This document shows positions 1,959 to 15,262 of a DNA stretch of 64,000 nt, piece by piece (within the stretch, counting starts at the first letter, position 1; each line of letters opens with the position of its first letter). Origin of the DNA: Aequorivita capsosiphonis DSM 23843 (GTDB lineage: Bacteria > Bacteroidota > Bacteroidia > Flavobacteriales > Flavobacteriaceae); contig NZ_AUBG01000007.1 in the NCBI RefSeq assembly GCF_000429125.1, positions 124,001 to 188,000 of the forward strand, read 5' to 3'. The notes beneath the pieces are model-generated. The model made no database searches, was not told the origin of the DNA, and worked only from the letters and a program-made list of their open reading frames with translations. The translations under genes and the position numbers were made by a program.

Positions 1959-2453
1959 TTGAAAAAAATCCTGCTTCTCAGCGACACCCACAGCTATATA
2001 GACGAAAAAATTCTTAAATACGTAAAACAGGCGGATGAAGTTTGGCATGCTGGCGATATTGGTGATCTGTCGGTTACAGACAAGATCAAAGCATTAAAAC
2101 CTTTACGTGCCGTTTATGGTAATATTGACAGCACGGAAGCACGAATGGAATTTCCGCTTCACAACCGTTTTATGTGTGAAGGTGTTGATGTTTGGATTAC
2201 ACATATTGGTGGTTACCCGGGAAAATACAATCCTTCTATTAGGCAAGAAATCTATTCCAACCCACCAAAAATATTTATTAGTGGCCATTCCCATATTCTA
2301 AAAGTGATGCCTGATAAAACAACAAAACTCCTTCATATGAATCCGGGGGCTGCAGGAAAACATGGATTTCACAAGGTGAGAACCATGCTTAGATTTGAAA
2401 TAGACGGTGAAAAAATCCAGAACTTGGAGGTAATTGAATTCGAGATTCGGTAA
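1959..2453 (+). CDS. YfcE/MJ0936-type metallophosphoesterase
   Basis: This is a compact 164-residue calcineurin-fold phosphodiesterase. The metal-binding motifs occur in order: SDTHSYID (D9, H11), AGDIGDL near residue 33, YGNID near residue 64, and GHSH near residue 108. Family members are small Mn-dependent phosphodiesterases; the physiological substrate is unknown here. The start is TTG at 1959, directly before KKILLLSDTH, which is the standard N-terminus of the family. The gene stands alone, divergent from truA. Confidence 0.9.
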   Translation: MKKILLLSDTHSYIDEKILKYVKQADEVWHAGDIGDLSVTDKIKALKPLRAVYGNIDSTEARMEFPLHNRFMCEGVDVWITHIGGYPGKYNPSIRQEIYSNPPKIFISGHSHILKVMPDKTTKLLHMNPGAAGKHGFHKVRTMLRFEIDGEKIQNLEVIEFEIR

Positions 2454-2475
2454 TAATTTCTATTTTCTGCGAAAT

Positions 2476-2538
2476 TTTTTTTATTTCCAGCTCTTTACAA
2501 AATCTGAAGGGCTTTTAACGGGTCTGGAAATAAAAAAA
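2476..2538. repeat. 15-bp inverted repeat, large-loop hairpin
   Basis: The arm at 2476-2490 (seven T, then ATTTCCAG) and the arm at 2524-2538 (CTGGAAAT, then seven A) are perfect reverse complements with a 33-nt loop. The structure follows the phosphodiesterase gene and its right arm overlaps the tRNA terminator. It could work as a transcription barrier, although it lacks the usual T-run after the right arm on the plus strand. Confidence 0.6.
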
Positions 2539-2560
2539 GTCCGCACTTTCGTGCAGACTT
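2531..2560 (-). terminator. Rho-independent terminator of tRNA-Arg
   Basis: Read on the minus strand, an AAGTC/GACTT plus GCAC/GTGC stem (one C/A mismatch, loop GAAA) is followed by a run of T. It begins about 12 nt after the tRNA 3' end. Confidence 0.8.
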
Positions 2561-2571
2561 TTCGCTCTAAG

Positions 2572-2645
2572 TGACCTTGCCAAGATTCAAACTTGGAACC
2601 TCCTGAGCCGTAATCAGGTGCGCTATTCAGTTGCGCCACAAGGCC
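2572..2645 (-). tRNA. tRNA-Arg (anticodon ACG)
   Basis: The 74-nt gene folds as a cloverleaf. The acceptor stem is GGCCTTG with CAAGGTC and discriminator A. The anticodon stem CCTGA/TCAGG encloses the loop TTACGGC, giving anticodon ACG. The T arm is CCAAG with loop TTTGAAT and CTTGG. The 3' CCA is not encoded. The first anticodon A would be deaminated to inosine, as is usual for tRNA-Arg(ACG). Confidence 0.96.
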
Positions 2646-2907
2646 GTTTTAATTCGCTATTAGCGGGTGCAAATATATTTCTTTTTAAATTATTAGTCAA
2701 GTTAAATGCGAAAAATATTGTGCTATTTTAATCAATCGTTTACAAAGGTAATAGTTTAACTTTATCGAACTGTATTTTTCTGTAATTAAAGCTACCTTAG
2801 AATATTGTGACAAACGAGTTATAGTGCTATGAAAAAACAAGAAGAAAAAAGAAAAAAAATTTGAGCTAGATAAACTAAGCTCAGATCAAAAACACAACGA
2901 TTAATCT

Positions 2908-3423
2908 ATGCAAAAAATTGAAAAGTTTATTCGAGAGATTGAGGATTTTCCTAAAAATGGAATTCATTTTAAAGACATAACGCCTTTATTGGCGAATCCG
3001 GAAGCTTCAAAATTATGTTTGGAAAAATTAATGGAAATGATTGGTTCTGAAAAGATTGATAAGGTTGTAGGGATTGAAGCAAGAGGCTTTTTCTTCGGAA
3101 CCTTGCTTGCTCAGCAATTGGATGCCGGTTTCGTACCAATCCGAAAGCCGGGAAAACTTCCTTATAAAACTATTGCCGAACCCTATGAGCTTGAATATGG
3201 CTTAGATTCGCTTGAGATGCACGAGGATGCCATAGAAAAGGGGGATCGGGTTTTGCTCCACGATGACGTTTTGGCAACAGGGGGTACCGCCCGTGCCGCG
3301 TGTAAGTTGATTGAAAGTCTGGGAGGTGAAATCGTGCAGTGTAATTTTCTGATTGAGTTAAAATTTTTAAATGGAATTCAAAAGTTAAAAAACCAGCACG
3401 TAAAAACATTGCTGAAATACTAA
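2908..3423 (+). CDS. apt: Adenine phosphoribosyltransferase
   Basis: Apt makes AMP from adenine and PRPP in purine salvage. The 171-residue protein has the family signature VVGIEARGFFFG near residue 52 and the PRPP-binding loop LLHDDVLATGGTA near residue 116. The ATG at 2908 precedes QKIEKFIREIEDFP, a standard Apt N-terminus. The stop codon overlaps the stop of a small convergent gene by four bases. Confidence 0.97.
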   Translation: MQKIEKFIREIEDFPKNGIHFKDITPLLANPEASKLCLEKLMEMIGSEKIDKVVGIEARGFFFGTLLAQQLDAGFVPIRKPGKLPYKTIAEPYELEYGLDSLEMHEDAIEKGDRVLLHDDVLATGGTARAACKLIESLGGEIVQCNFLIELKFLNGIQKLKNQHVKTLLKY

Positions 3424-3572
3424 TCCAAAGCATTTTTTGTCACCCACAACTTATAGCCAAATATGGCCATTTGAAATTTAGAGGCCTTTGCCAAGTCTAG
3501 CCCTTGCTTGGTATAGCTAGGTAATACTTTTCGATTAACTTTTGACAGGAATTTAAAAAATCTTTTTTTCAC
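3420..3572 (-). CDS. Small conserved basic protein, 50 aa
   Basis: A GTG-started frame encodes 50 residues beginning MKKRFFKFLSKVNR and containing QGLDLAKASKFQMAIFGYK. I recognise this as a small conserved flavobacterial protein (a hydrophobic-basic N-terminus, then a GLDLxKASKxQMAIxGY core); some databases label such proteins SsrA-binding, which I cannot verify. The frame is intact from GTG to TAG and its stop interlocks with the apt stop (CTAA). Function unknown. Confidence 0.75.
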   Translation of the reverse strand: MKKRFFKFLSKVNRKVLPSYTKQGLDLAKASKFQMAIFGYKLWVTKNALD

Positions 3573-3641
3573 GTATGTTTGGATTTCGTTCTAAAGTAAA
3601 CATTTTTGAGTGATATTCTTTTAAATTGAAGCTTTAAAAAA

Positions 3642-4553
3642 CTATTCCGCACTTTTCATAATGCTATGTTCTGAATCTACGCCAATGGAGACATTGCTTA
3701 TGGGTTCTTTCCCGTTTCCAAAGCTAGATGTTGAAATAGAACCCGCGCCATTATTTATCGTGATTGAGATATGAGTTATCAAATTACTCGCATTGCGTTC
3801 TAACTGATTGTAGGAAAATATTATGTTTTCAGCTTTATAAGTTTTTTCTAATGTTAGCAATTCTGCATCGGTGGTGTTTTTGGAAATTGTATGATAGGTC
3901 CCGGTAAAACTCTGAGAACTTTTTGATCTTTGGTTCCCAAAAACACTATCTCTTTCATGTTCCATTTTCGCACGCATTTGGGTTTGTCTTTCCCTCATTT
4001 CCTGCATACGTTCGGCCATGTTATTATTCATTTCTTCGCTTCTCCTATGCATTTCAGCTCTTCTTTTCTCCATTTCAGCCCTGCGGTCTTCTGAGGTTTG
4101 TTGCCTGTCTGCTGAAACCTTATTACCGCTTCCTTGATTTATAAAGGCTTGGTTTCCGTTGCCCTTACTTTTAACGGAAATCTGGTTTCCATTGGACATA
4201 ATAACAATATCATTTATCGGATTTTCGCTCCCCACGCTATAGCTCCCGCTGTTATTGTTTGCGTCCTTGTAGCTGATGGATATGGAGATGATCTCTTTTT
4301 GGTCATTATACACAACATTGGAGTAATCAAACTCAAAGCCCTCATCTTTCATTTGGTTCTTGATGTTTTCGAGCTCTTCTAGACTTGTTTTTTTTGTGAT
4401 TATTAAAGAAGTCTGCTTTTCCATTACTTCATTATTATTCGTTGATTTTATTGCCAATCCATTTGCGGTGGTAGATGAAATAAAAAAGGAAAAAAAGATT
4501 AGAACCAGGAAAGAGACGGGTTTTTGCATAATTTTAAAGAGTAGCGTTTTCAT
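3642..4553 (-). CDS. Secreted protein with two BlaR1-tail-like domains
   Basis: I start this at the internal ATG at 4553 because it gives a clean signal peptide (MKTLLFKIMQ, then a hydrophobic run to FFISSTTANG); a longer frame reaches 4634. After the signal come two copies of one domain: the first begins SLIITKKTSLEELENIKNQM, the second begins TYHTISKNTTDAELLTLEKT. Both continue with an ISISI/ISITI strand and a serine/glycine-rich end. They are separated by a highly charged Met/Arg/Glu helix (EDRRAEMEKRRAEMHRRS). Similar domains usually form the C-terminal tail of flavobacterial M56/BlaR1 membrane peptidases. Here no peptidase is attached or adjacent. Role unknown. Confidence 0.75.
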   Translation of the reverse strand: MKTLLFKIMQKPVSFLVLIFFSFFISSTTANGLAIKSTNNNEVMEKQTSLIITKKTSLEELENIKNQMKDEGFEFDYSNVVYNDQKEIISISISYKDANNNSGSYSVGSENPINDIVIMSNGNQISVKSKGNGNQAFINQGSGNKVSADRQQTSEDRRAEMEKRRAEMHRRSEEMNNNMAERMQEMRERQTQMRAKMEHERDSVFGNQRSKSSQSFTGTYHTISKNTTDAELLTLEKTYKAENIIFSYNQLERNASNLITHISITINNGAGSISTSSFGNGKEPISNVSIGVDSEHSIMKSAE

Positions 4554-4663
4554 GATAAGATTTATTTTATTGTGAGTTCGAATGAGTTTAGAGTTCAATA
4601 GATCACTAAGTTTTTTACAAGAGGATAGTACCAAATATACAACAAATTCTTTTTTTCATTTAG

Positions 4664-4671
4664 TATCTTCG
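4664..4671 (+). promoter_or_regulatory. Possible -7 box of the antiporter gene
   Basis: TATCTTCG differs at one position from TAnnTTTG and sits 16 bp before the ATG at 4688. No clear -33 element was found. Confidence 0.3.
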
Positions 4672-4687
4672 CACGCAATTATATTTT

Positions 4688-5641
4688 ATGGATTATTTAT
4701 TTGTTTTTCTCGGATTGATTTTACTAGTGGTCGGCGGCGAATTTTTAGTTCGCTCCTCGGTTGCCCTTTCATTTAAACTTCACCTTTCAAAAATGGTGAT
4801 TGGTTTGACCGTGGTTTCCTTTGCAACTTCCGCGCCAGAACTTTTAGTGAGCCTTCAAGCTGCGTTAAATGGGTTTTCTGATATTTCATTAGGGAATGTT
4901 ATCGGATCTAATATTGCCAATATTGGTCTTGTTCTGGGTATAACCGCAATAATCACTCCGCTGGCAATTGATAAGGGCTTTTATAAGTTGAATTGGCCGG
5001 TGATGATGATTCTTACTGTAGCCTTGTATTTTATTCTGAAGAGTGGAAATGAAATTTCTCGTTCTGAAGGAATCGCTTTGTTGCTTATGCTTTTTGTTTA
5101 CCTCTGGATTTTGATTCGCAAAGCCAAAAAAGAGAGAGGAACTATGCCGGTTGATGATGATATTGACGAAGGTTTGTCTAAAGCTTCTAATTTTAAAATA
5201 ATTGTTTGGTTAGTTATAGGTGGTGTTTCATTATATTTTGGTAGCCAACTTCTGGTGAACAGTGCTATAAATATAGCTGAACTCTTTGGTGTAAGTGAAC
5301 GGGTTATTGCGGTAACAATGATAGCCGTAGGAACAAGTATTCCTGAGCTGGCTGCTTCGGTAATTGCCGCGCTAAAAAAAGAAAAGGCAATTTCATTGGG
5401 AAACCTTATAGGTTCTAATATTTTCAACATTTCTTCCGTTTTGGGAATCACGGCGATCATTCAACCAATTGCAGTTAAAAGTCAGGAGGTCCTTACAAAT
5501 GATATCTTTTGGATGATAGGATTTTCGGTAATTATTCTTCCTTTGGCTTTTCTTCCCACATCGTATCAGCTTGGTCGTAAACGTGGGATTTTTTTGGTAG
5601 CGGCCTATGCGATCTTTATCGGGATGACTATTTTGAAATAG
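4688..5641 (+). CDS. YrbG-type calcium/sodium antiporter
   Basis: This 317-residue inner-membrane protein has two homologous halves of about five helices. Each half carries the alpha repeat of the CaCA superfamily: GNVIGSNIANIGLVLG in the first and GNLIGSNIFNISSVLG in the second. A second conserved pair, SFATSAPEL and AVGTSIPEL, lines the ion pathway. A charged cytoplasmic loop (KAKKERG to DDDIDEG) separates the halves. The family exchanges Ca2+ for Na+ or H+. The gene appears monocistronic. A short CCCCAT/ATGGGG hairpin at 5658-5675 follows the stop but has no T-run. Confidence 0.92.
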   Translation: MDYLFVFLGLILLVVGGEFLVRSSVALSFKLHLSKMVIGLTVVSFATSAPELLVSLQAALNGFSDISLGNVIGSNIANIGLVLGITAIITPLAIDKGFYKLNWPVMMILTVALYFILKSGNEISRSEGIALLLMLFVYLWILIRKAKKERGTMPVDDDIDEGLSKASNFKIIVWLVIGGVSLYFGSQLLVNSAINIAELFGVSERVIAVTMIAVGTSIPELAASVIAALKKEKAISLGNLIGSNIFNISSVLGITAIIQPIAVKSQEVLTNDIFWMIGFSVIILPLAFLPTSYQLGRKRGIFLVAAYAIFIGMTILK

Positions 5642-5777: not shown

Positions 5778-7964
5778 ATGCCCACACTACGATTTTATGC
5801 AATTAAGGAAACCTTTAATAGAGTTCCAGTTCCAGTTACCGAGCCTGAACGTCGTTCCGAAATCTTCGGAAAAAACGTTTTTAATAAATCTGCTATGCGG
5901 CAGTATCTTACAAAAGACTCCTATAAAAGTGTTATGGATGCCATAGAAAATGGCACCAAAATAGAACGCCATATAGCCGATCATATTTCTACAGGTATGA
6001 AGGAATGGGCCATTGCAAAGGGAGGAACGCATTATACGCACTGGTTCCAGCCATTAACGGGAGCTACTGCAGAAAAACACGATGCTTTCTTTGAAACAAT
6101 GGAAGATGGCCACGCCATAGAAAAATTTGGAGGTGGGCAATTGGTTCAGCAAGAACCGGATGCTTCCAGTTTTCCTAATGGTGGAATTAGAAATACATTT
6201 GAGGCACGTGGTTATACCGCTTGGGATCCAACTTCGCCAGCATTTATTTATGGTACAACTTTGTGTATCCCTACTGTTTTTGTTTCATATACAGGGGAGG
6301 CCTTAGATTATAAAACACCATTGCTGAGAGCTTTGCAGTCCATAGATAGTGCGGCCACAGATGTAGCTAAGTATTTTGATAAAAACGTAACAAAGGTAAG
6401 CGCAACCTTAGGTTGGGAACAGGAATACTTTTTGGTTGATAGTGCTTTAGCAGCCTCAAGACCAGATATTTCGTTGGCGGGAAGAACTTTATTGGGACAT
6501 TCTTCGGCAAAGGGCCAACAATTGGACGATCATTATTTCGGATCTATTCCAGATAGGGTACTTAACTTTATCCGTCATTTGGAAACGGAATGTATGCTTT
6601 TGGGTATTCCAGTAAAAACACGCCATAATGAAGTGGCACCCAATCAATTTGAGCTTGCACCTATCTTTGAGGAGACCAATTTGGCGGTTGACCACAATTC
6701 GTTATTGATGGACTTGATGAATAAAATTGCCTCAAAACATAACTTTAAGGTGTTGTTTCACGAAAAACCCTTTGCCAATGTAAACGGTAGTGGGAAACAC
6801 AACAACTGGTCTTTGGCTACCAATACCGGAGTAAACCTTCTTGGGCCAAGCACTACGCCAACAAAAAACCTTCAGTTTTTGACTTTCTTTATCAATACGC
6901 TAAAGGCTGTAAATGATCACGAAGAGCTGATTAGAGCATCTATAGCGAGTGCGGGCAATGATCATCGTTTAGGTGCAAACGAGGCTCCTCCAGCCATTAT
7001 TTCGGCATTTATAGGCTCTCAGCTGACAGAGGTTTTGGATGAATTGGAAAAAGTTACCAATGGAAAACTTTCTCCACAGGAAAAAACTGATTTAAAACTT
7101 AATGTTGTTGGTAAAATCCCAGAGATTTTATTGGACAATACAGATAGAAACCGAACTTCTCCTTTTGCATTTACAGGAAACAAATTTGAATTCCGTGCCG
7201 TTGGTTCAACCGCAAATTGCGCAAACCCTATGACCGTGCTAAATGCGATCGTTGCCAGACAATTGATTGACTTTAAGGTAAAGGTCGATGCACTCATCAA
7301 GGACAAAAAGATGAAGAAGGACGATGCTATCTTTAATGTGTTGAGAGAGTATATTAAGGACTCGAAACGAATTCGTTTTGAAGGTGATGGATATGGAGAA
7401 GCTTGGGAAATTGAAGCGAAAAAACGTGGTTTGAGCAATCATAAAACCACTCCAGAAGCTTTAAAGGCTAAAATCTCCAAGAAAGCGATTTCACTTTTTG
7501 AAGGCCTTGGTATTATGAGCAAGGTAGAACTGGAGGCTCGTTATGAAATTGAGATGGAAGACTACGCCATGCGAATTCAAATTGAAGGCCGTATTCTAGG
7601 AGATATTGCGCGCAACCATATAATCCCGACCGCAATTCGTTATCAAAATATTTTGATAGAAAACGTGCAAGGGCTAAAGAACATTTATGGTACAGACTTT
7701 AAAAAATTCTCTGTGGAACAGATGCATCTTATTGAACAAATAAGCGGCCATATTGCTGAGATCAATAAGGGAATAACAGATATGATTGAAGCGCGCAGAA
7801 ATGCAAACAAAATTGAGGATGTTACCAAGAGAGCCTTTGCATACGGTGATGATGTGAAATCGTATTTCCAGGTTATTCGCTATCACTGTGATAAGCTAGA
7901 GTTGCTTGTGGACGATGAAATTTGGCCATTGACAAAATATAGGGAGCTACTTTTTACCAAATAG
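5778..7964 (+). CDS. glnN: Glutamine synthetase type III
   Basis: The enzyme makes glutamine from glutamate, ammonia and ATP. At 728 residues it has the type III size, much longer than GlnA types I and II. Visible type III features are the N-terminal RRSEIFGKNVFN block, the catalytic KGGTHYTHWFQPLTG block near residue 80, LGWEQEYFLVD near residue 213, KTRHNEVAPNQFELAPIFEE near residue 278, and GSGKHNNWSLATNTG near residue 337. This is the usual main glutamine synthetase in Bacteroidota. It is transcribed alone, with a promoter-like box upstream and a strong terminator downstream. Confidence 0.97.
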   Translation: MPTLRFYAIKETFNRVPVPVTEPERRSEIFGKNVFNKSAMRQYLTKDSYKSVMDAIENGTKIERHIADHISTGMKEWAIAKGGTHYTHWFQPLTGATAEKHDAFFETMEDGHAIEKFGGGQLVQQEPDASSFPNGGIRNTFEARGYTAWDPTSPAFIYGTTLCIPTVFVSYTGEALDYKTPLLRALQSIDSAATDVAKYFDKNVTKVSATLGWEQEYFLVDSALAASRPDISLAGRTLLGHSSAKGQQLDDHYFGSIPDRVLNFIRHLETECMLLGIPVKTRHNEVAPNQFELAPIFEETNLAVDHNSLLMDLMNKIASKHNFKVLFHEKPFANVNGSGKHNNWSLATNTGVNLLGPSTTPTKNLQFLTFFINTLKAVNDHEELIRASIASAGNDHRLGANEAPPAIISAFIGSQLTEVLDELEKVTNGKLSPQEKTDLKLNVVGKIPEILLDNTDRNRTSPFAFTGNKFEFRAVGSTANCANPMTVLNAIVARQLIDFKVKVDALIKDKKMKKDDAIFNVLREYIKDSKRIRFEGDGYGEAWEIEAKKRGLSNHKTTPEALKAKISKKAISLFEGLGIMSKVELEARYEIEMEDYAMRIQIEGRILGDIARNHIIPTAIRYQNILIENVQGLKNIYGTDFKKFSVEQMHLIEQISGHIAEINKGITDMIEARRNANKIEDVTKRAFAYGDDVKSYFQVIRYHCDKLELLVDDEIWPLTKYRELLFTK

Positions 7965-8835: not shown

Positions 8836-10293
8836 ATGAAAAAAGTAATTTTTTGCGCAGCAGCGCTAATGATTGGAGCCGTGGGTCTTGCACAGACTAC
8901 CCCCGATACTCCAGATGCACCAAACAATGCTTTGCTCCTTACTCTTAGTCAGCCAGCTGCTCCTGGAGCTAACAGAGCCAAAGCTATCCAAAATGGTATG
9001 AACAACAAAGTGGCAGTTAAACAGGTTGGAACCAGCCAGAATGCTTACTCAGATCAAGGGGATGGCTCAGGCATGGGATCTAACCAAGGACGCATTTGGC
9101 AAACTGGAAACGTAAGTTCTAGTAGTGGTGACTCCAACATGGCTGAACTTTACCAAAGAGGTACATCAAATCAATCCACCCAATATCAATTTGGTGATGG
9201 TAATGAGTCTCTAGTAAAGCAAGGTAACATGGATAGTGGAAGTTCTGGAAACAAAGCCTATGCTCAACAAGGGGATATAACAGCGCAAGAGGCTCAGGAC
9301 AATAAACTTGAAATTAGCCAAAATGGAGATGATAACCAGGCTCGTACGGAGCAACGTTTTGACAATAATGAGGCGTTGACAGATCAAACTGGTACCGATA
9401 ACTATGCCGATATCTATCAATATGCACAACCAGATCAGTCTGACGGGCACACCGCTGAGGTAACTCAAAATGGGGGGCTAAACGACGCTTGGGTTAGACA
9501 AGATGGTGTAGGTGCTCGCAACGCAGCCACTTCCCGTCAAGACGGAACAGACAACTACTCTGATCAAGTTCAGTGGTCTACAGATAATACTGATTTTGCC
9601 GACAGTAACAATGCTGCTGTATTCCAAGGCACAAATGGTGGTAACCTGATGACCACAGTAATTGATTCATATATGGATACTTTCGTTGATAATTATCACG
9701 TTGGAGGTAATTCAGCTTCTATTAGAAATAGTGCATTTCAAGATCAATACGGAGATGACAACGACGCTGCCGCCTTCCAAAGAGGACAAGATAACTATTC
9801 CGAACAAAAACAAGTAGGGGACGAAAATGATGCGTTGGTTATTCAAAATTTCTATGATCCAAATGGAGCAAATGGCAATAACTATGCTAAGCAAACTCAA
9901 ACTGGAGATTATAACATAGCGGGTATCGCCCAAAATGGATATAATAACAGAGCGCTTCAAAGCCAAAACGGTGATTATAACATAGCGCTTTCTACCCAAC
10001 AGGGTCATGATAACGACGCAAACGTACATCAGATTGGTGATGATAACTATGCTACAACTGCTCAAAGAGCTTCATGTAATGATATACTTGTTGTGCAGTA
10101 TGACGGTCAGAGTGCTGTTGTTGAGCAAAACCTTGATGGCTTGCCAGGAGGTAACAATACCGCTAATATCTATCAGTCTGGTCCTGACGGAGGAGGAGGA
10201 ACTATCAACTGTGCTTTCGATCCAAAGTTAACACCAAGAACTCGTGTTGATATTCCAGTATTCAACATTCCAGATGTGTGCCCAGGTTGTTAA
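8836..10293 (+). CDS. Large curlin-repeat amyloid subunit (CsgA-like)
   Basis: The protein has 485 residues: a signal peptide ending near GAVGLAQ, then a long array of curlin-type repeats with the Q-x-G-x-x-N signature, such as AVKQVGTSQNAYS, KLEISQNGDDNQAR and IAGIAQNGYNNRAL. Each strand-loop-strand unit carries the Gln/Asn ladder typical of curli amyloids, and the array is several times longer than the five repeats of E. coli CsgA. Spacers break its regularity. The last 30 residues differ: they are proline-rich and end in CPGC, with two further cysteines in the preceding region. It is followed by its own terminator and then by csgB/E/F/G homologues, which supports the role of main secreted fibre subunit. 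Confidence 0.88.
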   Translation: MKKVIFCAAALMIGAVGLAQTTPDTPDAPNNALLLTLSQPAAPGANRAKAIQNGMNNKVAVKQVGTSQNAYSDQGDGSGMGSNQGRIWQTGNVSSSSGDSNMAELYQRGTSNQSTQYQFGDGNESLVKQGNMDSGSSGNKAYAQQGDITAQEAQDNKLEISQNGDDNQARTEQRFDNNEALTDQTGTDNYADIYQYAQPDQSDGHTAEVTQNGGLNDAWVRQDGVGARNAATSRQDGTDNYSDQVQWSTDNTDFADSNNAAVFQGTNGGNLMTTVIDSYMDTFVDNYHVGGNSASIRNSAFQDQYGDDNDAAAFQRGQDNYSEQKQVGDENDALVIQNFYDPNGANGNNYAKQTQTGDYNIAGIAQNGYNNRALQSQNGDYNIALSTQQGHDNDANVHQIGDDNYATTAQRASCNDILVVQYDGQSAVVEQNLDGLPGGNNTANIYQSGPDGGGGTINCAFDPKLTPRTRVDIPVFNIPDVCPGC

Positions 10294-10355: not shown

Positions 10356-10485
10356 ACAATAAATTTAATATCTTTATGACGAGCTTATATTAAAAGTCTT
10401 AAAAGAAAATGATTTTGATAAAGACTTAGGATTAAATTTAGACACTGTATAATCACCGTAGAAAACGGATAATTTAAACTTGCTG

Positions 10486-11031
10486 ATGATGAAAACAACA
10501 CTAAAAAACATACTGTTTGCTATCTTGATGACGGCGTTTCTATCGCCTTGCGTTTGGAGTCAAACATATAAAGAAGAAGGAAACACTTCTGCTGAAGGGG
10601 AAAAGATGGTGCCAGGCCAAAAAATGTCTCCAGAGCTAATGGCAAATTTGGGAATTATTTCTGCCCCAAATCCAAAAAATGCAACCGTTCAAGGGAATGC
10701 TGTATATGTTCGTCAAATTGGGAGTTATAACACTGCCCAAATCCAGACCCGTACCAATGCCAGTGAAATAAACCTAAGCCAGAATGGAGATTATAATGAC
10801 ACAAACTTAGATTATACCGCCAATACTGCGGTGGCCGATCTTATTCAGAACGGCAATAATAATCGGATCAAAGATTTCGTAAACAATCCTAATGCCGATA
10901 TTTCTCTAGATCTTACACAGGACGGCAACAATCTCAACTTTGAGCGCGACGGCGTGAATGAGCTTACAAAATCGTTGAAATTCCGGCAAACGGAAGCATC
11001 GCCAACAATATTAGTCAGAAGCTTTTATTAG
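10486..11031 (+). CDS. csgB: Minor curlin, CsgB-like nucleator
   Basis: I begin at ATG 10486 (a second ATG follows at 10489); an upstream TTG is less likely. A signal peptide ends near PCVWSQ. The mature part has curlin-like repeats: VRQIGSYNTAQIQ, INLSQNGDYNDTN, ADLIQNGNNNRIK and LDLTQDGNNLNFE. The C-terminus is basic and aromatic (RQTEASPTILVRSFY), as in flavobacterial CsgB-like proteins that may nucleate the main subunit. The stop codon TAG is immediately followed by the ATG of the csgE-like gene, so the two are probably translationally coupled. Assignment to CsgB, and not to a second CsgA, rests on size, tail and position. Confidence 0.75.
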   Translation: MMKTTLKNILFAILMTAFLSPCVWSQTYKEEGNTSAEGEKMVPGQKMSPELMANLGIISAPNPKNATVQGNAVYVRQIGSYNTAQIQTRTNASEINLSQNGDYNDTNLDYTANTAVADLIQNGNNNRIKDFVNNPNADISLDLTQDGNNLNFERDGVNELTKSLKFRQTEASPTILVRSFY

Positions 11032-11832
11032 ATGAACCTGGCTCAGAGACATACCGTTTCAGTAAAAAACATTATACTCTTCACTTGTATGCTTTGCATG
11101 ACCGTGGGAGTAAACGCACAATACTATAATAAGGAGTATGTGGCAAAAATTTTGGTGAGGGATGATAGTGAGTTTTTCACTTTTGCCGCAACCGCTGAAA
11201 ACATTACTCCAACAGATGTAAACCTGAAATATGATTTTAATCTATATAGTACCGATGAGAACGACAGTGTGTCGAGAAGCAACCAATCAGAACTTTTCTT
11301 CTTAAAGGCAAACGAGAAAAAAGTGCTATCCACAGTAGCGGTAAATTATAATAGTGAGGATAAAATTACTTTAGTATTGGTGCTCTATGATAAAGACGGC
11401 AAACCAGTGGGTCAGGACCGTATTGAGTTAACTTCGGAAAATGGCCATCAAGAAATAGTGAAAAAAGAACATCCCCCACAAGAGGAAGCCTTAAGTCAAG
11501 ATCAAGCTGCGCCTCAAGATGGATTTGTTATGGATGGGTTTGTAGTTGAAAACACCATGACCAAGGCAGGTCGTGATTTTTATAAGTATTTTTATGCTGA
11601 TTATTACAACCGTGGGATACAAACAAAAAAAAATATAGTGATTGATGAAGTGCCAGGAAAAATGAGAACTACGCGGATTTCTGTTAAAATGGATGATCAA
11701 CTGCTATGGCAATTTTTTTCGCAACCAAAGAAAACTTTTTTAAAAGCAATGGCAAAAACAGCTTTAGATCGTTGCATTGCCTACATTCAACAAATTCAAC
11801 AGCAAAAGGATAATACATTAATCCGGTATTGA
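11032..11832 (+). CDS. csgE: CsgE with N-terminal CsgH-like domain
   Basis: CsgE is the periplasmic adaptor that caps the CsgG channel and delivers subunits. The C-terminal part, from about residue 163, matches CsgE: NTMTKAGRDFYKYFYADYY, then NIVIDEVPGKMRTTRISVKM and LLWQFFSQPKKTFLKAMA. E. coli CsgE has only about 130 residues, so roughly 130 residues here are extra. After the signal peptide (to VGVNAQ) this extra part is a beta-rich domain (FTFAATAENITPTDVNLKYD, QSELFFLKANEKKVLSTVAV) that resembles the CsgH/CsgC amyloid-inhibiting fold in strand pattern. A Gln/Glu-rich linker (near residues 140-160) joins the two. The CsgE assignment is strong; the CsgH relation is my inference. Confidence 0.85.
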   Translation: MNLAQRHTVSVKNIILFTCMLCMTVGVNAQYYNKEYVAKILVRDDSEFFTFAATAENITPTDVNLKYDFNLYSTDENDSVSRSNQSELFFLKANEKKVLSTVAVNYNSEDKITLVLVLYDKDGKPVGQDRIELTSENGHQEIVKKEHPPQEEALSQDQAAPQDGFVMDGFVVENTMTKAGRDFYKYFYADYYNRGIQTKKNIVIDEVPGKMRTTRISVKMDDQLLWQFFSQPKKTFLKAMAKTALDRCIAYIQQIQQQKDNTLIRY

Positions 11833-11922: not shown

Positions 11923-12333
11923 ATGAAAATATTAAAACTACTTTCCGTATTTATATTGCTATTTACAGGCATAAATAGTTTTGCTCAGCAACTTACATAC
12001 AAACCTCTAAACCCGGCTTTTGGTGGCGATAGTTTTAATTACAGCTGGATGTTAAGTTCAGCCACGGCACAAAACAAGCTTGTCGCCCCCGCTAAAGAAG
12101 GAGAACAGCGTTCCGAACTTCAACAATTTGGAGCTAGTCTTAACAAGCAGTTGTTAAGTCAAATTTCGCGAACCCTGCTCCAGCAACAACTTGGGGGGCT
12201 TGATTTTGGTCAAGAGGGTACCTTTACCTACGGTACATTGAATATAGAAATTTATCAATCTGATGAAGGTTTGGTAATAAATATATTAGATACCTCCAAT
12301 GGAGAGGAAACACAAGTAATTGTTCCAAATTAA
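11923..12333 (+). CDS. csgF: Curli assembly protein CsgF
   Basis: CsgF exits through CsgG, decorates the channel at the cell surface and helps nucleation. The 136-residue protein has a signal peptide ending at INSFAQ and then the CsgF hallmark PLNPAFGGDSFNYSWMLSSA, equivalent to the N-terminal segment that plugs the CsgG pore in E. coli. Length and position between csgE and csgG agree with the family. The end of the gene lies 10 bp before the csgG ATG. Confidence 0.9.
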   Translation: MKILKLLSVFILLFTGINSFAQQLTYKPLNPAFGGDSFNYSWMLSSATAQNKLVAPAKEGEQRSELQQFGASLNKQLLSQISRTLLQQQLGGLDFGQEGTFTYGTLNIEIYQSDEGLVINILDTSNGEETQVIVPN

Positions 12334-12343
12334 AAAAAAATTC

Positions 12344-13714
12344 ATGAGAATATTTTTAAGATCCATTTTTTTAGCAAGCGTTTTTTTGTGTTCATCCTGT
12401 TCGGCTTATTTTAATCAGCCCGTATCCCAACAAGCTTCACGTACTGGAGAGTTTACTAAATCTACACAAATTCTTTTAGATTTGCCTCCCGCAGCTCAGC
12501 CCTTAGAAGTAGCAGTTTATAATTTTAGTGATCAAACAGGACAATACAAGGCGGTGGAAAATGGAAGTACTTTCAGTACTGCTATTTCTCAAGGGGGAAC
12601 CACAATGTTGATAAAGGCGTTGGAGGATTCTGGTTGGTTTATTCCGATAGAACGGGAAAACTTGAGCAATCTCTCCACCGAGCGTAACATCATCAGGAAC
12701 ACCAAACAAGAATACATTAAAAATCTAAATCCGGATGAGCCACCGCTGCCTCCACTTTTATATGCTGGCTTATTGTTGGAAGGTGGCGTAATTTCCTATG
12801 ACACAAACATTATTACAGGTGGTGTAGGCGCTCGATATTTTGGGCTTGGCGGGTCAGCCAAATATAGACAGGATAGAATTACGGTTTATCTTAGAGCGGT
12901 TTCCACCAGTAATGGGGAAATTCTGAAAACGGTTTATGTTTCCAAGACAATACTTTCGCAAGCTATAGACGCCAGCTTTTTTCGTTTTGTGAAATTTCAA
13001 AGATTGCTGGAAGCGGAGACAGGGGTTACACAAAATGAACCTGTTCAATTGGCGATGAAGGATGCTATAGAAAAAGCAGTGCACGATCTTATTATTGAAG
13101 GTATTCAAAAACAGTTTTGGAGTACCCAAGACGGAAAAGAGAAGAATGATCAACTGGTCGCAGAATATATTGAAGAAAAACAAAGAGATGAATCAACGCT
13201 GCTTCTAGATCGATTTATAGTAGGGCGCGAGGCGCAAAATTCAATTGGAATTTCGGGAGGTGGAAGCTTACCGGATAACGATTATGCTACGCAGAATCTA
13301 GGTTTTATGGGTAGATTGGAATATCGCAGAAATTTTGGCCATTATTTTGGTGTTGGATTAGCTGGCACAGTATTTAGAATGGATAATGGAAATCAATTTA
13401 ACAATACTTTTGGCAGTCTTGATCTAAATGGACAATTTAATATTTTGCCGAATGATAAGTTGTCTCCCTTTATCTATGCAGGTATGGGAGGGATTCTTGA
13501 CATTAGTGGTAAAACTTTGAATTTTGGAGACGGCTTTGTCAAGATTCAATTTGGGGTTGGGGCTGAATATTTCATCTCAAATAAATTAGGAGTCAAATTA
13601 TTTGGTGAGCAGAACATTGCCCTTAGCGATAAAGTGGATGGGGTTGTTCACGGTAAAAGGAATGACTTCTATTATAACCTTGGCCTAGGAATTAATTATT
13701 ATTTTAAACTGTAA
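12344..13714 (+). CDS. csgG: Curli secretion channel CsgG with C-terminal barrel-like extension
   Basis: CsgG is the nonameric outer-membrane lipoprotein pore for curli subunits. I choose ATG 12344, which gives a lipoprotein signal with cysteines in FLCSSCSAYF; an upstream TTG at 12320 would add eight charged residues. The CsgG domain (about residues 20-265) contains EVAVYNFSDQTGQYK, FIPIERENLSNLSTERNIIR and LEGGVISYDTN, all typical. E. coli CsgG is 277 residues; this one is 456. The extra C-terminal part (about 285-456) has alternating hydrophobic strands (GFMGRLEYRRNFGHYFGVGL to FYYNLGLGINYYFKL) that resemble a small outer-membrane beta barrel ending in an aromatic residue. Confidence 0.92.
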   Translation: MRIFLRSIFLASVFLCSSCSAYFNQPVSQQASRTGEFTKSTQILLDLPPAAQPLEVAVYNFSDQTGQYKAVENGSTFSTAISQGGTTMLIKALEDSGWFIPIERENLSNLSTERNIIRNTKQEYIKNLNPDEPPLPPLLYAGLLLEGGVISYDTNIITGGVGARYFGLGGSAKYRQDRITVYLRAVSTSNGEILKTVYVSKTILSQAIDASFFRFVKFQRLLEAETGVTQNEPVQLAMKDAIEKAVHDLIIEGIQKQFWSTQDGKEKNDQLVAEYIEEKQRDESTLLLDRFIVGREAQNSIGISGGGSLPDNDYATQNLGFMGRLEYRRNFGHYFGVGLAGTVFRMDNGNQFNNTFGSLDLNGQFNILPNDKLSPFIYAGMGGILDISGKTLNFGDGFVKIQFGVGAEYFISNKLGVKLFGEQNIALSDKVDGVVHGKRNDFYYNLGLGINYYFKL

Positions 13715-13735: not shown

Positions 13736-15262
13736 ATGAAAAAATTTATAACATTGATTTGTGCGGCTTTTCTCCTTTTCATCTGGAGCTGTAGCGAAGA
13801 TACTATAGAGGTAGTTTTGTATGGGAATCTTACAGGAAAAGTTGTGGATAAAATAAGTGGAGAGTCTTTGGATAATGTTAAAATAACAACTAATCCAGCC
13901 TCCACAACCGTTTTTACCGATACTTCAGGAACGTTTAAAATAGATCGAATTCCTGTTGATGATTATTCAGTTCAGGCTGAGTTGACGGGGTATTCAGCTG
14001 GTTTTGAAGCTGTCTCTGTTTCTGAGAATAATACATCAACAGTTTCCTTTGAGCTCTCGATTGCCAATACGAAAAACAAGCCGCCTACCACCCCCGAATT
14101 AGTATCACCTGCAGATGGAGAAGTGGAATTACCGCTTGAGGTAACCTTTACTTGGGAAGCATCAGATCCTGATGGGGATGAACTTTCATATACCTTGGAT
14201 TTAAGAAATGGAACTACAGACGAGATGGAGGTTTTTGAGATAGTACGAGACACGAGCTATACGGTACAAAACCTTCAACTTGCAACTAAATACTTTTGGC
14301 AGGTTACTGCAACCGATGGAGAAAATGACCCTGTAAGCTCTACCATAAGTGAGTTTAAAACCCTTGTTTTGCCTGATAATCCCTATATATTTGTTAAAGA
14401 GAAAAATGGAAATCTCGTAATACATTCTGGAGCTAAAAGCGATACTGTAACAGGTGGCACTACGGTGCCTGATTTTAATGTTTTGCAACTTACAAGTGAA
14501 AACCAAAATAGTTTCCGTCCTAAAAAGAGTACTATCCTCAATAAGATTGCTTTTTTAAGAAATTCAGGTGGAAATACCCATATCTATACAATGAATTATG
14601 ATGGTACGGATCTAAGACAAATTACATCCCAAACACCGGTGGCTGGTTTCCTAATTGAAGAAGTGGGATTTACATGGGCCCAAAATGACAGCAAATTATA
14701 TTATCCCTATTTTGACAAACTATACTCTATAAATTCAGATGGAAGTGGTCTCAATTTAGAATATACTACTACTGATGGCGCTTTTATATCAGAAGTTGCA
14801 GTGCCAGAGTTTGATAACAATCTTGTTCTCTTAAAAACTAATAATTCTAGTGGTTATGATGTCCGCATTTATACCGCAAGAATTGATACCGATACCGAGG
14901 AGACAATAATTCTTGAAAATGTACTCGGTGCTGCTGGAGGAATTGATATTTCCTCGAATGCCGATAAAATTTTATACACCAAAGGTGATAATGAACAAAA
15001 CTCTTCCTATAAAATTTTCAATAGTCGCATTTTTCTCTACACCATTGGACAGCCTGATCAGCCGGTTGAAGTAGAAACAAATGTTTTGCTTGGAGAAAAC
15101 GATTTGGATGTAAAGTTCTCACCTTCTGAAGGTGGGATAATATTTACTCGGGTGCAAAGCAACATAGGAGCTACTCCTGCTGTTTATTCCTTAATATTTG
15201 ATCAACAATCTCAAGCGGATCAGATATTATTTACGAACTCATTTATGCCAGATTGGGAATAA
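13736..15262 (+). CDS. Curli-locus lipoprotein with CarboxypepD_reg-like, Fn3 and TolB-like repeats
   Basis: The 508-residue protein has a lipoprotein signal ending at LFIWSC. Next comes a CarboxypepD-regulatory-like domain (GNLTGKVVDKISGESLDNVK), then a fibronectin type III-like domain (TPELVSPADGEVELPLEVTF to TKYFWQVTATDGENDPVSS). The C-terminal half resembles a TolB/PD40-type propeller, with segments such as HIYTMNYDGTDLRQIT and KLYSINSDGSGL. It follows csgG by 21 bp on the same strand and is followed by a strong terminator, so it is the last gene of the curli unit. Surface exposure and fibre anchoring are possible but not shown. Confidence 0.8.
   Translation: MKKFITLICAAFLLFIWSCSEDTIEVVLYGNLTGKVVDKISGESLDNVKITTNPASTTVFTDTSGTFKIDRIPVDDYSVQAELTGYSAGFEAVSVSENNTSTVSFELSIANTKNKPPTTPELVSPADGEVELPLEVTFTWEASDPDGDELSYTLDLRNGTTDEMEVFEIVRDTSYTVQNLQLATKYFWQVTATDGENDPVSSTISEFKTLVLPDNPYIFVKEKNGNLVIHSGAKSDTVTGGTTVPDFNVLQLTSENQNSFRPKKSTILNKIAFLRNSGGNTHIYTMNYDGTDLRQITSQTPVAGFLIEEVGFTWAQNDSKLYYPYFDKLYSINSDGSGLNLEYTTTDGAFISEVAVPEFDNNLVLLKTNNSSGYDVRIYTARIDTDTEETIILENVLGAAGGIDISSNADKILYTKGDNEQNSSYKIFNSRIFLYTIGQPDQPVEVETNVLLGENDLDVKFSPSEGGIIFTRVQSNIGATPAVYSLIFDQQSQADQILFTNSFMPDWE

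Follow-up and report, generated by a model that had tools for sequence, protein, structure and literature searches.

The window (the whole 64,000-nucleotide stretch of Aequorivita capsosiphonis DSM 23843 DNA that was analysed) contains a curli operon in the gene order csgA-like, csgB-like, csgE, csgF and csgG (Table 1). The csgE reading frame comprises 266 sense codons with no internal stop and is the only csgE copy in the source genome. Its ATG start codon abuts the TAG of the csgB-like gene with 0 bases between them, which suggests translational coupling. Among the best 80 of 193 loci, the closest named relatives of the encoded protein belong to Aequorivita (12 loci, 59–74% identity).

Table 1 Features of the curli operon and of the csgE product, in window coordinates.
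Feature	Position	Strand	Basis
csgA-like curlin, 485 aa, several curlin repeats	8836..10293	+	PF07012 1.3e-27, 8 stretches
csgB-like minor curlin, 183 aa as listed, TTG start	10480..11031	+	NF007470 8.4e-5, NF007506 6.8e-4, PF07012 0.054, all below cut-off
csgE with N-terminal CsgC/CsgH-like domain, 266 aa	11032..11832	+	profile matches
Signal peptide, residues 1–29, cleavage between VNA and Q	11032..11118	+	by eye
CsgC/CsgH-like domain, residues 30–135, seven-stranded β sandwich	11119..11436	+	NF041112 2.3e-6, model, Foldseek CsgC rank 1
Most shared segment, β4-β5, residues 85–105	11284..11346	+	alignment
Linker, residues 136–166, acidic, partly predicted disordered	11437..11529	+	pLDDT, pI 4.48
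CsgE domain, residues 167–266	11530..11829	+	PF10627 residues 167–259; pI 9.61
csgF, 136 aa	11923..12333	+	PF10614 6.2e-34
csgG with C-terminal outer-membrane-barrel-like extension, TTG start as listed	12320..13714	+	PF03783 1.7e-65, PF13505

The sequence-only reading had described the protein as twice the length of E. coli CsgE, with a recognisable CsgE as its C-terminal half. Both statements hold: the chain has 266 residues compared with 129 in E. coli CsgE, signal peptide included, and the Pfam CsgE model PF10627 matches residues 167–259 with 70 bits (cut-off 25, E-value 2.3e-19). The match of this half and the location of the gene between the csgB-like gene and csgF are shared with known CsgE (PF10627; 2NA4), and the neighbours on the downstream side are recognised as csgF (PF10614, 6.2e-34) and csgG (PF03783, 1.7e-65). 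The alignment with E. coli CsgE retains the FY..F motif of helix 1 and the I-x-E strand. However, E. coli CsgE lacks the extra domain, and its Arg47, reported to be required for curlin binding and called invariant (PMC6050966), is not aligned to an arginine. The residue at this position of the window CsgE is a methionine with a basic residue on each side, and one other aligned row (L057) lacks a basic residue both there and beside it.

The csgG frame contains an in-frame ATG at position 12344. Its product, 464 residues long compared with 277 in E. coli CsgG, matches PF13505 at residues 319–462 with an E-value of 1.6e-4 and 22.3 bits, below the cut-off of 28.7. A CsgG length of 451–531 residues was found in 11 of 12 curli loci compared, source genome included, and the twelfth (L130) gave no match. 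Directly after csgG, positions 13736–15262 encode a protein in which carboxypeptidase-regulatory and fn3 domains are recognised. In locus L127, too, csgG is followed by a protein that starts similarly (10547–11188), and the 13736–15262 protein may be part of the curli locus. The L127 frame had been picked up as CsgH-like (0.0019) and was dropped, since inspection by eye showed a carboxypeptidase-regulatory/fn3-like protein.

Relationship of the N-terminal half to CsgC and CsgH

The NCBIfam CsgH model NF041112 matches residues 49–125 with an E-value of 1.7e-5 when the whole protein is searched and 2.3e-6 with the domain alone. The 24.8 bits obtained in the window protein fall short of the curated cut-off of 35, which is exceeded by three of the ten fused genes that this model found in the phylum sample. 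The CsgC model NF007507 matches residues 80–121 (0.0018 for the whole protein, 4.9e-4 for the domain alone), and the Pfam CsgC model gives a weak match to the window domain (0.051). For nine homologous N-domains, with E-values of up to 10 admitted, NF041112 matches all nine (best 1.9e-12) and NF007507 eight (best 8.2e-7); the Pfam CsgC model matches eight (best 2.1e-5) and the Pfam CsgH model two (best 0.011). A profile built from these nine domains (A2), searched against 177,635 distinct PDB sequences, reaches E-values below 0.1 for CsgC only, represented by two entries (best 9.1e-7), and the runner-up stands at 0.71. With a profile of 39 fused domains (A3) CsgC is again first, at 4.8e-4, a weaker value than with A2. 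Profile alignment with hhalign, where the E-values are those of single comparisons, yields 2.7e-12 for the N-domain profile with the separate CsgH of genome G166 and 9.2e-6 with E. coli CsgC. In a single-sequence PDB search with the whole protein, E. coli CsgE ranks third (0.029) and CsgC is absent; the transferrin and ankyrin-type matches of that search are at chance level.

Aligning the 39 fused domains with three separate CsgH and with E. coli CsgC locates the most conserved part of the family. Residues Gln85, Leu99 and Asn105, which lie on strands β4 and β5 of the structural model, do not vary among the three separate CsgH and E. coli CsgC, and they occur in 33, 37 and 35 of the 39 fused domains, respectively. 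The segment QSELFFLKANEKK (residues 85–97), which had been singled out from the letters as resembling the CsgH group, comprises strand β4, the turn and the start of β5 and thus belongs to the part most alike in fused domains, CsgH and CsgC. Residues 30–140 of the window protein contain no cysteine, as is the case in 36 of the 39 rows. Both the CxC motif of CsgC and the disulphide of CsgH, the latter formed by two distant cysteines (definitions of PMC4838910), are therefore absent.

The AlphaFold2 model of the N-domain contains seven β strands (pLDDT 88.8, pTM 0.81), in keeping with the β-rich domain proposed to follow the signal peptide, whose end (...VNA, then Q) was assigned by eye; the modelled domain spans about residues 30–135. 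A Foldseek search with this model ranks CsgC (2xsk) first, with an E-value of 2.8e-5, RMSD of 2.7 and TM score of 0.79 by target, and CsgH (2n59) ninth, with an E-value of 2.4e-4 and TM score of 0.66 by target. The search also returns many generic Ig-like sandwiches with E-values near 1e-4, mostly domains of large proteins. When the full mature chain is searched, CsgC drops to third place after two unrelated proteins, and CsgH is ninth. The two-domain model has a pTM of 0.46, so that the domain arrangement is not predicted. In the linker, pLDDT falls below 50 at protein residues 146–159 and 161–165 (model residues 117–130 and 132–136).

Profiles, profile alignments and fold search agree, and the predicted fold is not that of an unrelated module. 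The N-terminal half is thus supported as a member of the CsgC/CsgH superfamily. With the CsgH of Alphaproteobacteria (NF041112, PF21112; R. palustris 2N59) it shares the profile match over residues 49–125, the seven-stranded sandwich, the curli operon and secretion, whereas the fusion to CsgE, the lack of cysteines and the score below the curated cut-off set it apart. With the CsgC of Enterobacteriales (NF007507, PF10610; 2XSK, 2Y2Y) it shares the best fold match, with the TM score of 0.79, and the Gln, Leu and Asn of β4-β5. CsgC, however, is a separate protein of 110 residues with the CxC motif. A β-rich extension arisen by chance was considered and rejected, given the CsgH and CsgC profile E-values and the presence of the domain in 98 of 99 csgE copies.

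Occurrence and linkage of the fused domain

Genome samples were drawn from larger groups. In the Flavobacteriaceae sample of 395 genomes, csgE was found in 97 (99 copies) and the N-domain likewise in 97 (102 matches), at most 11 candidates being scored per genome, so that further diverged copies may be missed. Pairing by position places an N-domain upstream, in frame and on the same strand, in 98 of the 99 csgE copies. The extension, which the sequence-only reading had proposed to seek in other Bacteroidota csgE genes, is thus present in nearly all csgE copies of this family sample, and a frameshift or mis-joining of two genes is rejected, all 98 linked copies being in frame. The distance between the two profile ends is 10–42 residues (median 27). 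The sole csgE copy without the domain, in G654 (a genome 90% complete), has an intact frame and a CsgE match below cut-off, and the N-domain was not found in the reading frames of its contig of 7,268 bases. Among the best 80 of 193 loci with named proteins, 79 carry the N-domain by profile and one (L096) by eye; since the search that retrieved these proteins used the fused protein as query, they do not form an independent count. Fused csgE also occurs in Weeksellaceae and in one MAG labelled Sphingobacterium.

Two N-domain matches are unlinked to csgE. The match in G417, a partial one of 48 positions in a frame of 1631 residues, is probably spurious. In G638 a separate N-domain copy of 160 residues lies near a second curli cluster (csgA, csgB, csgF and csgG) in which no CsgE domain was found. 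This cluster and the 160-residue CsgH-like frame occupy positions 2358–5613 and 7089–7571 of locus L138, and the genome also has a complete operon with fused csgE. In a quick tree of N-domains, flagged for long branches in the separate CsgH and CsgC sequences, the G638 copy nests among the fused domains (SH-aLRT 92). This placement suggests that its CsgE half was lost later. Tandem N-domains precede CsgE in G430 and G573, which belong to the same genus (L136, 6029–7225; L137, 7920–9107; 398 and 395 residues). The tandem copies, together with the separate one of G638, indicate that the N-domain is a unit by itself.

The phylum sample contains csgE in 29 of 296 genomes (31 copies, 30 of which had a locus and were read). 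The fusion is present in 11 of the 29, all of them from the family or order of the window; ten were found by the CsgH model and one (G130) by the A3 profile. Three further genomes, those of the distant relatives G166, G195 and G231, encode an unfused CsgE and, as a gene of its own in their curli locus adjoining the curlin genes, a separate CsgH above the curated cut-off (6.4e-15 to 2.1e-16). The separate proteins belong to the same domain family and the same kind of locus as the fused domain, which differs from them in being part of CsgE. Each of the 29 csgE-positive genomes has at most one CsgH match. Neither a fused nor a separate CsgH was found at an E-value of 0.01 in 15 of the 29, which indicates that the inhibitor is dispensable there or goes unrecognised. 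Outside Flavobacteriaceae, Weeksellaceae and the MAG, the extension is absent or replaced in the sampled csgE genomes of the phylum. A sample at class level has csgE in 13 of 396 genomes, three of them new (G929, G944 and G959). In the source genome no separate csgH was found, NF041112 at E-values up to 1 matching csgE alone.

In a tree of the CsgE core (43 rows, 109 columns) all 23 fused rows form one clade, with support of 100/99 and presence in 100% of 200 bootstrap trees. A single origin of the fusion is likely from these sequences, and falls short of proof, given the shortness of the stretch and several long rows outside the clade.

Another domain occupies the same place in some relatives. 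At E-values up to 0.01, a LysM domain lies N-terminal to CsgE in seven of ten CsgEs scanned (nine from family f23 and one from f21). All seven are from f23 (L004, L005, L007, L011, L012, L013 and L014), and six exceed the cut-off. For f23 itself the count is seven of ten CsgEs scanned, the third copy of G211 not being among them, and the Pfam scan did not find LysM in L009, L031 and L003 (f23) or L010 (f21). At E-values up to 0.1, LysM is present in five of 12 phylum CsgEs. LysM usually binds peptidoglycan, and the CsgE caps that carry it may thus be tethered to the wall. Two CsgEs of family f5 (L015 and L028) have an N-terminal region of ~ 110 residues that looks β-rich. No relationship of these regions to CsgH was detected, and they may represent either another module or a strongly diverged one.

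Possible function of the fused protein

In E. coli, CsgE caps CsgG on the periplasmic side as a ninefold assembly; it also binds the CsgA repeats and slows CsgA aggregation at ~ 1:1, whereas CsgC is active at ratios down to 1:1000, and CsgC and CsgH act via brief, charge-guided contacts (PMC5135000, PMC6957492). The NMR shifts that curlin induces in CsgH are subtle and lie near the β4-β5 edge (PMC4838910). On this background we consider it likely that the window protein is a two-domain curli accessory factor, in which a flexible linker of ~ 30 residues connects an anti-amyloid chaperone of the CsgC/CsgH type with a CsgE cap, the tethered domains keep curlin un-nucleated and the fusion replaces a separate CsgC or CsgH. 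For the N-domain, curlin inhibition and display at the pore side are inferred by analogy with these proteins. The chain would be exported by the Sec pathway and remain periplasmic. The CsgE half would form a cap, probably ninefold, on the periplasmic mouth of CsgG and, like its E. coli counterpart, bind curlin. The CsgH-like domains tethered to it would contact arriving curlin, probably via the β4-β5 edge, which by the same analogy may act here too, and would hold it disordered and un-nucleated up to pore entry. The acidic, partly disordered linker would let the N-domains reach the substrate, and the single chain would provide a high local inhibitor concentration where curlin gathers, the fusion substituting for a separate CsgC or CsgH.

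Both parts of the protein are known families, and their joining is new and widely conserved. The csgC gene has been reported missing from all Bacteroidetes genera and csgH described from Alphaproteobacteria (PMC3521004), which left open how curlin stays soluble in Bacteroidetes; the answer of the Flavobacteriales appears to sit inside csgE. A Bacteroidetes CsgH sub-family was found by PSI-BLAST in PMC4838910, whose main text lacks the words fused and fusion; the sub-family may include fused domains without this being stated there. CsgC or CsgH is counted apart from CsgE in PMC10192328. Neither a CsgE-CsgH nor a CsgE-LysM fusion was found described in the open-access papers searched, and none of these papers mentions both CsgE and LysM. 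A natural fusion of inhibitor and cap suggests the site of curlin handover, and it makes the step from CsgC to CsgE, which working models for E. coli depict (PMC6050966, PMC6957492), accessible to tests on a single protein. It also suggests that protection and export of the curlin subunit are combined in one molecule, which would be a ready-made tethered amyloid inhibitor.

As a tentative extension, which we regard as possible, the CsgE cap would be modular in the phylum, its N-terminal slot holding either an anti-amyloid chaperone, sometimes in tandem, or a LysM wall anchor. The chaperone form would place a ring of at least nine inhibitor domains below the pore, a no-nucleation zone passed by every curlin subunit.

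The charge of the domain bears on how closely it follows CsgC and CsgH. Over the 39 rows the N-domain pI has a median of 6.94 and a maximum of 9.9, and the window domain is the lowest, with a pI of 4.55 and a net charge of -6. Curlin-like ORFs were picked by their repeat motif, which gave 40 ORFs from 27 of the 39 rows, with a median pI of 4.32, and none from the other 12, the window included. The curlin of the window has a mature net charge of -36 and a pI of 4.05, which we take to be the floor of the pI program used. Members of the superfamily would be expected to have a pI clearly higher than that of their own curlin. The group medians (6.94 versus 4.32) differ in the direction reported for CsgC and CsgH in PMC4838910, and the values in the window are 4.55 and 4.05. 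With an acidic N-domain close to the curlin in pI, the electrostatic mechanism of PMC4838910 fits the window protein poorly, and the acidity and the lack of cysteines together make it less certain that the CsgC/CsgH mechanism applies to it directly. Perhaps the basic CsgE half (pI 9.61) draws curlin, or the mode of action has changed in this branch.

The same two properties favour an alternative in which the N-domain has the CsgC/CsgH fold by descent, has lost inhibition and serves the cap as adaptor or spacer, for example by touching the enlarged Bacteroidota CsgG or another operon product. The CsgG is enlarged here too, and the LysM at the same place in the f23 CsgEs demonstrates that the N-terminal slot can hold an anchor. 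However, the most shared segment, β4-β5, is the very edge at which curlin induces shifts in CsgH (PMC4838910), the tandem and separate copies of G430, G573 and G638 favour an activity of the domain's own, and so does the separate csgH where CsgE is unfused. We therefore judge this alternative rather unlikely.

That the gene is an economical means to co-express CsgH and CsgE, with periplasmic proteolysis at the disordered linker parting the halves, is very improbable. The linker is indeed partly predicted disordered and varies in length from 10 to 42 residues, but all 98 linked copies preserve the frame even though a pair of overlapping genes would do equally well. An inhibitor that stays attached to its cap is the reading we prefer over both. 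The idea of a generic Ig-like module with no relation to CsgC or CsgH can draw on the many other β sandwiches near 1e-4 in Foldseek, but is scarcely credible given that CsgC is the only PDB protein below 0.1 with the A2 profile and that NF041112 and NF007507 recognise nine and eight of the nine N-domains.
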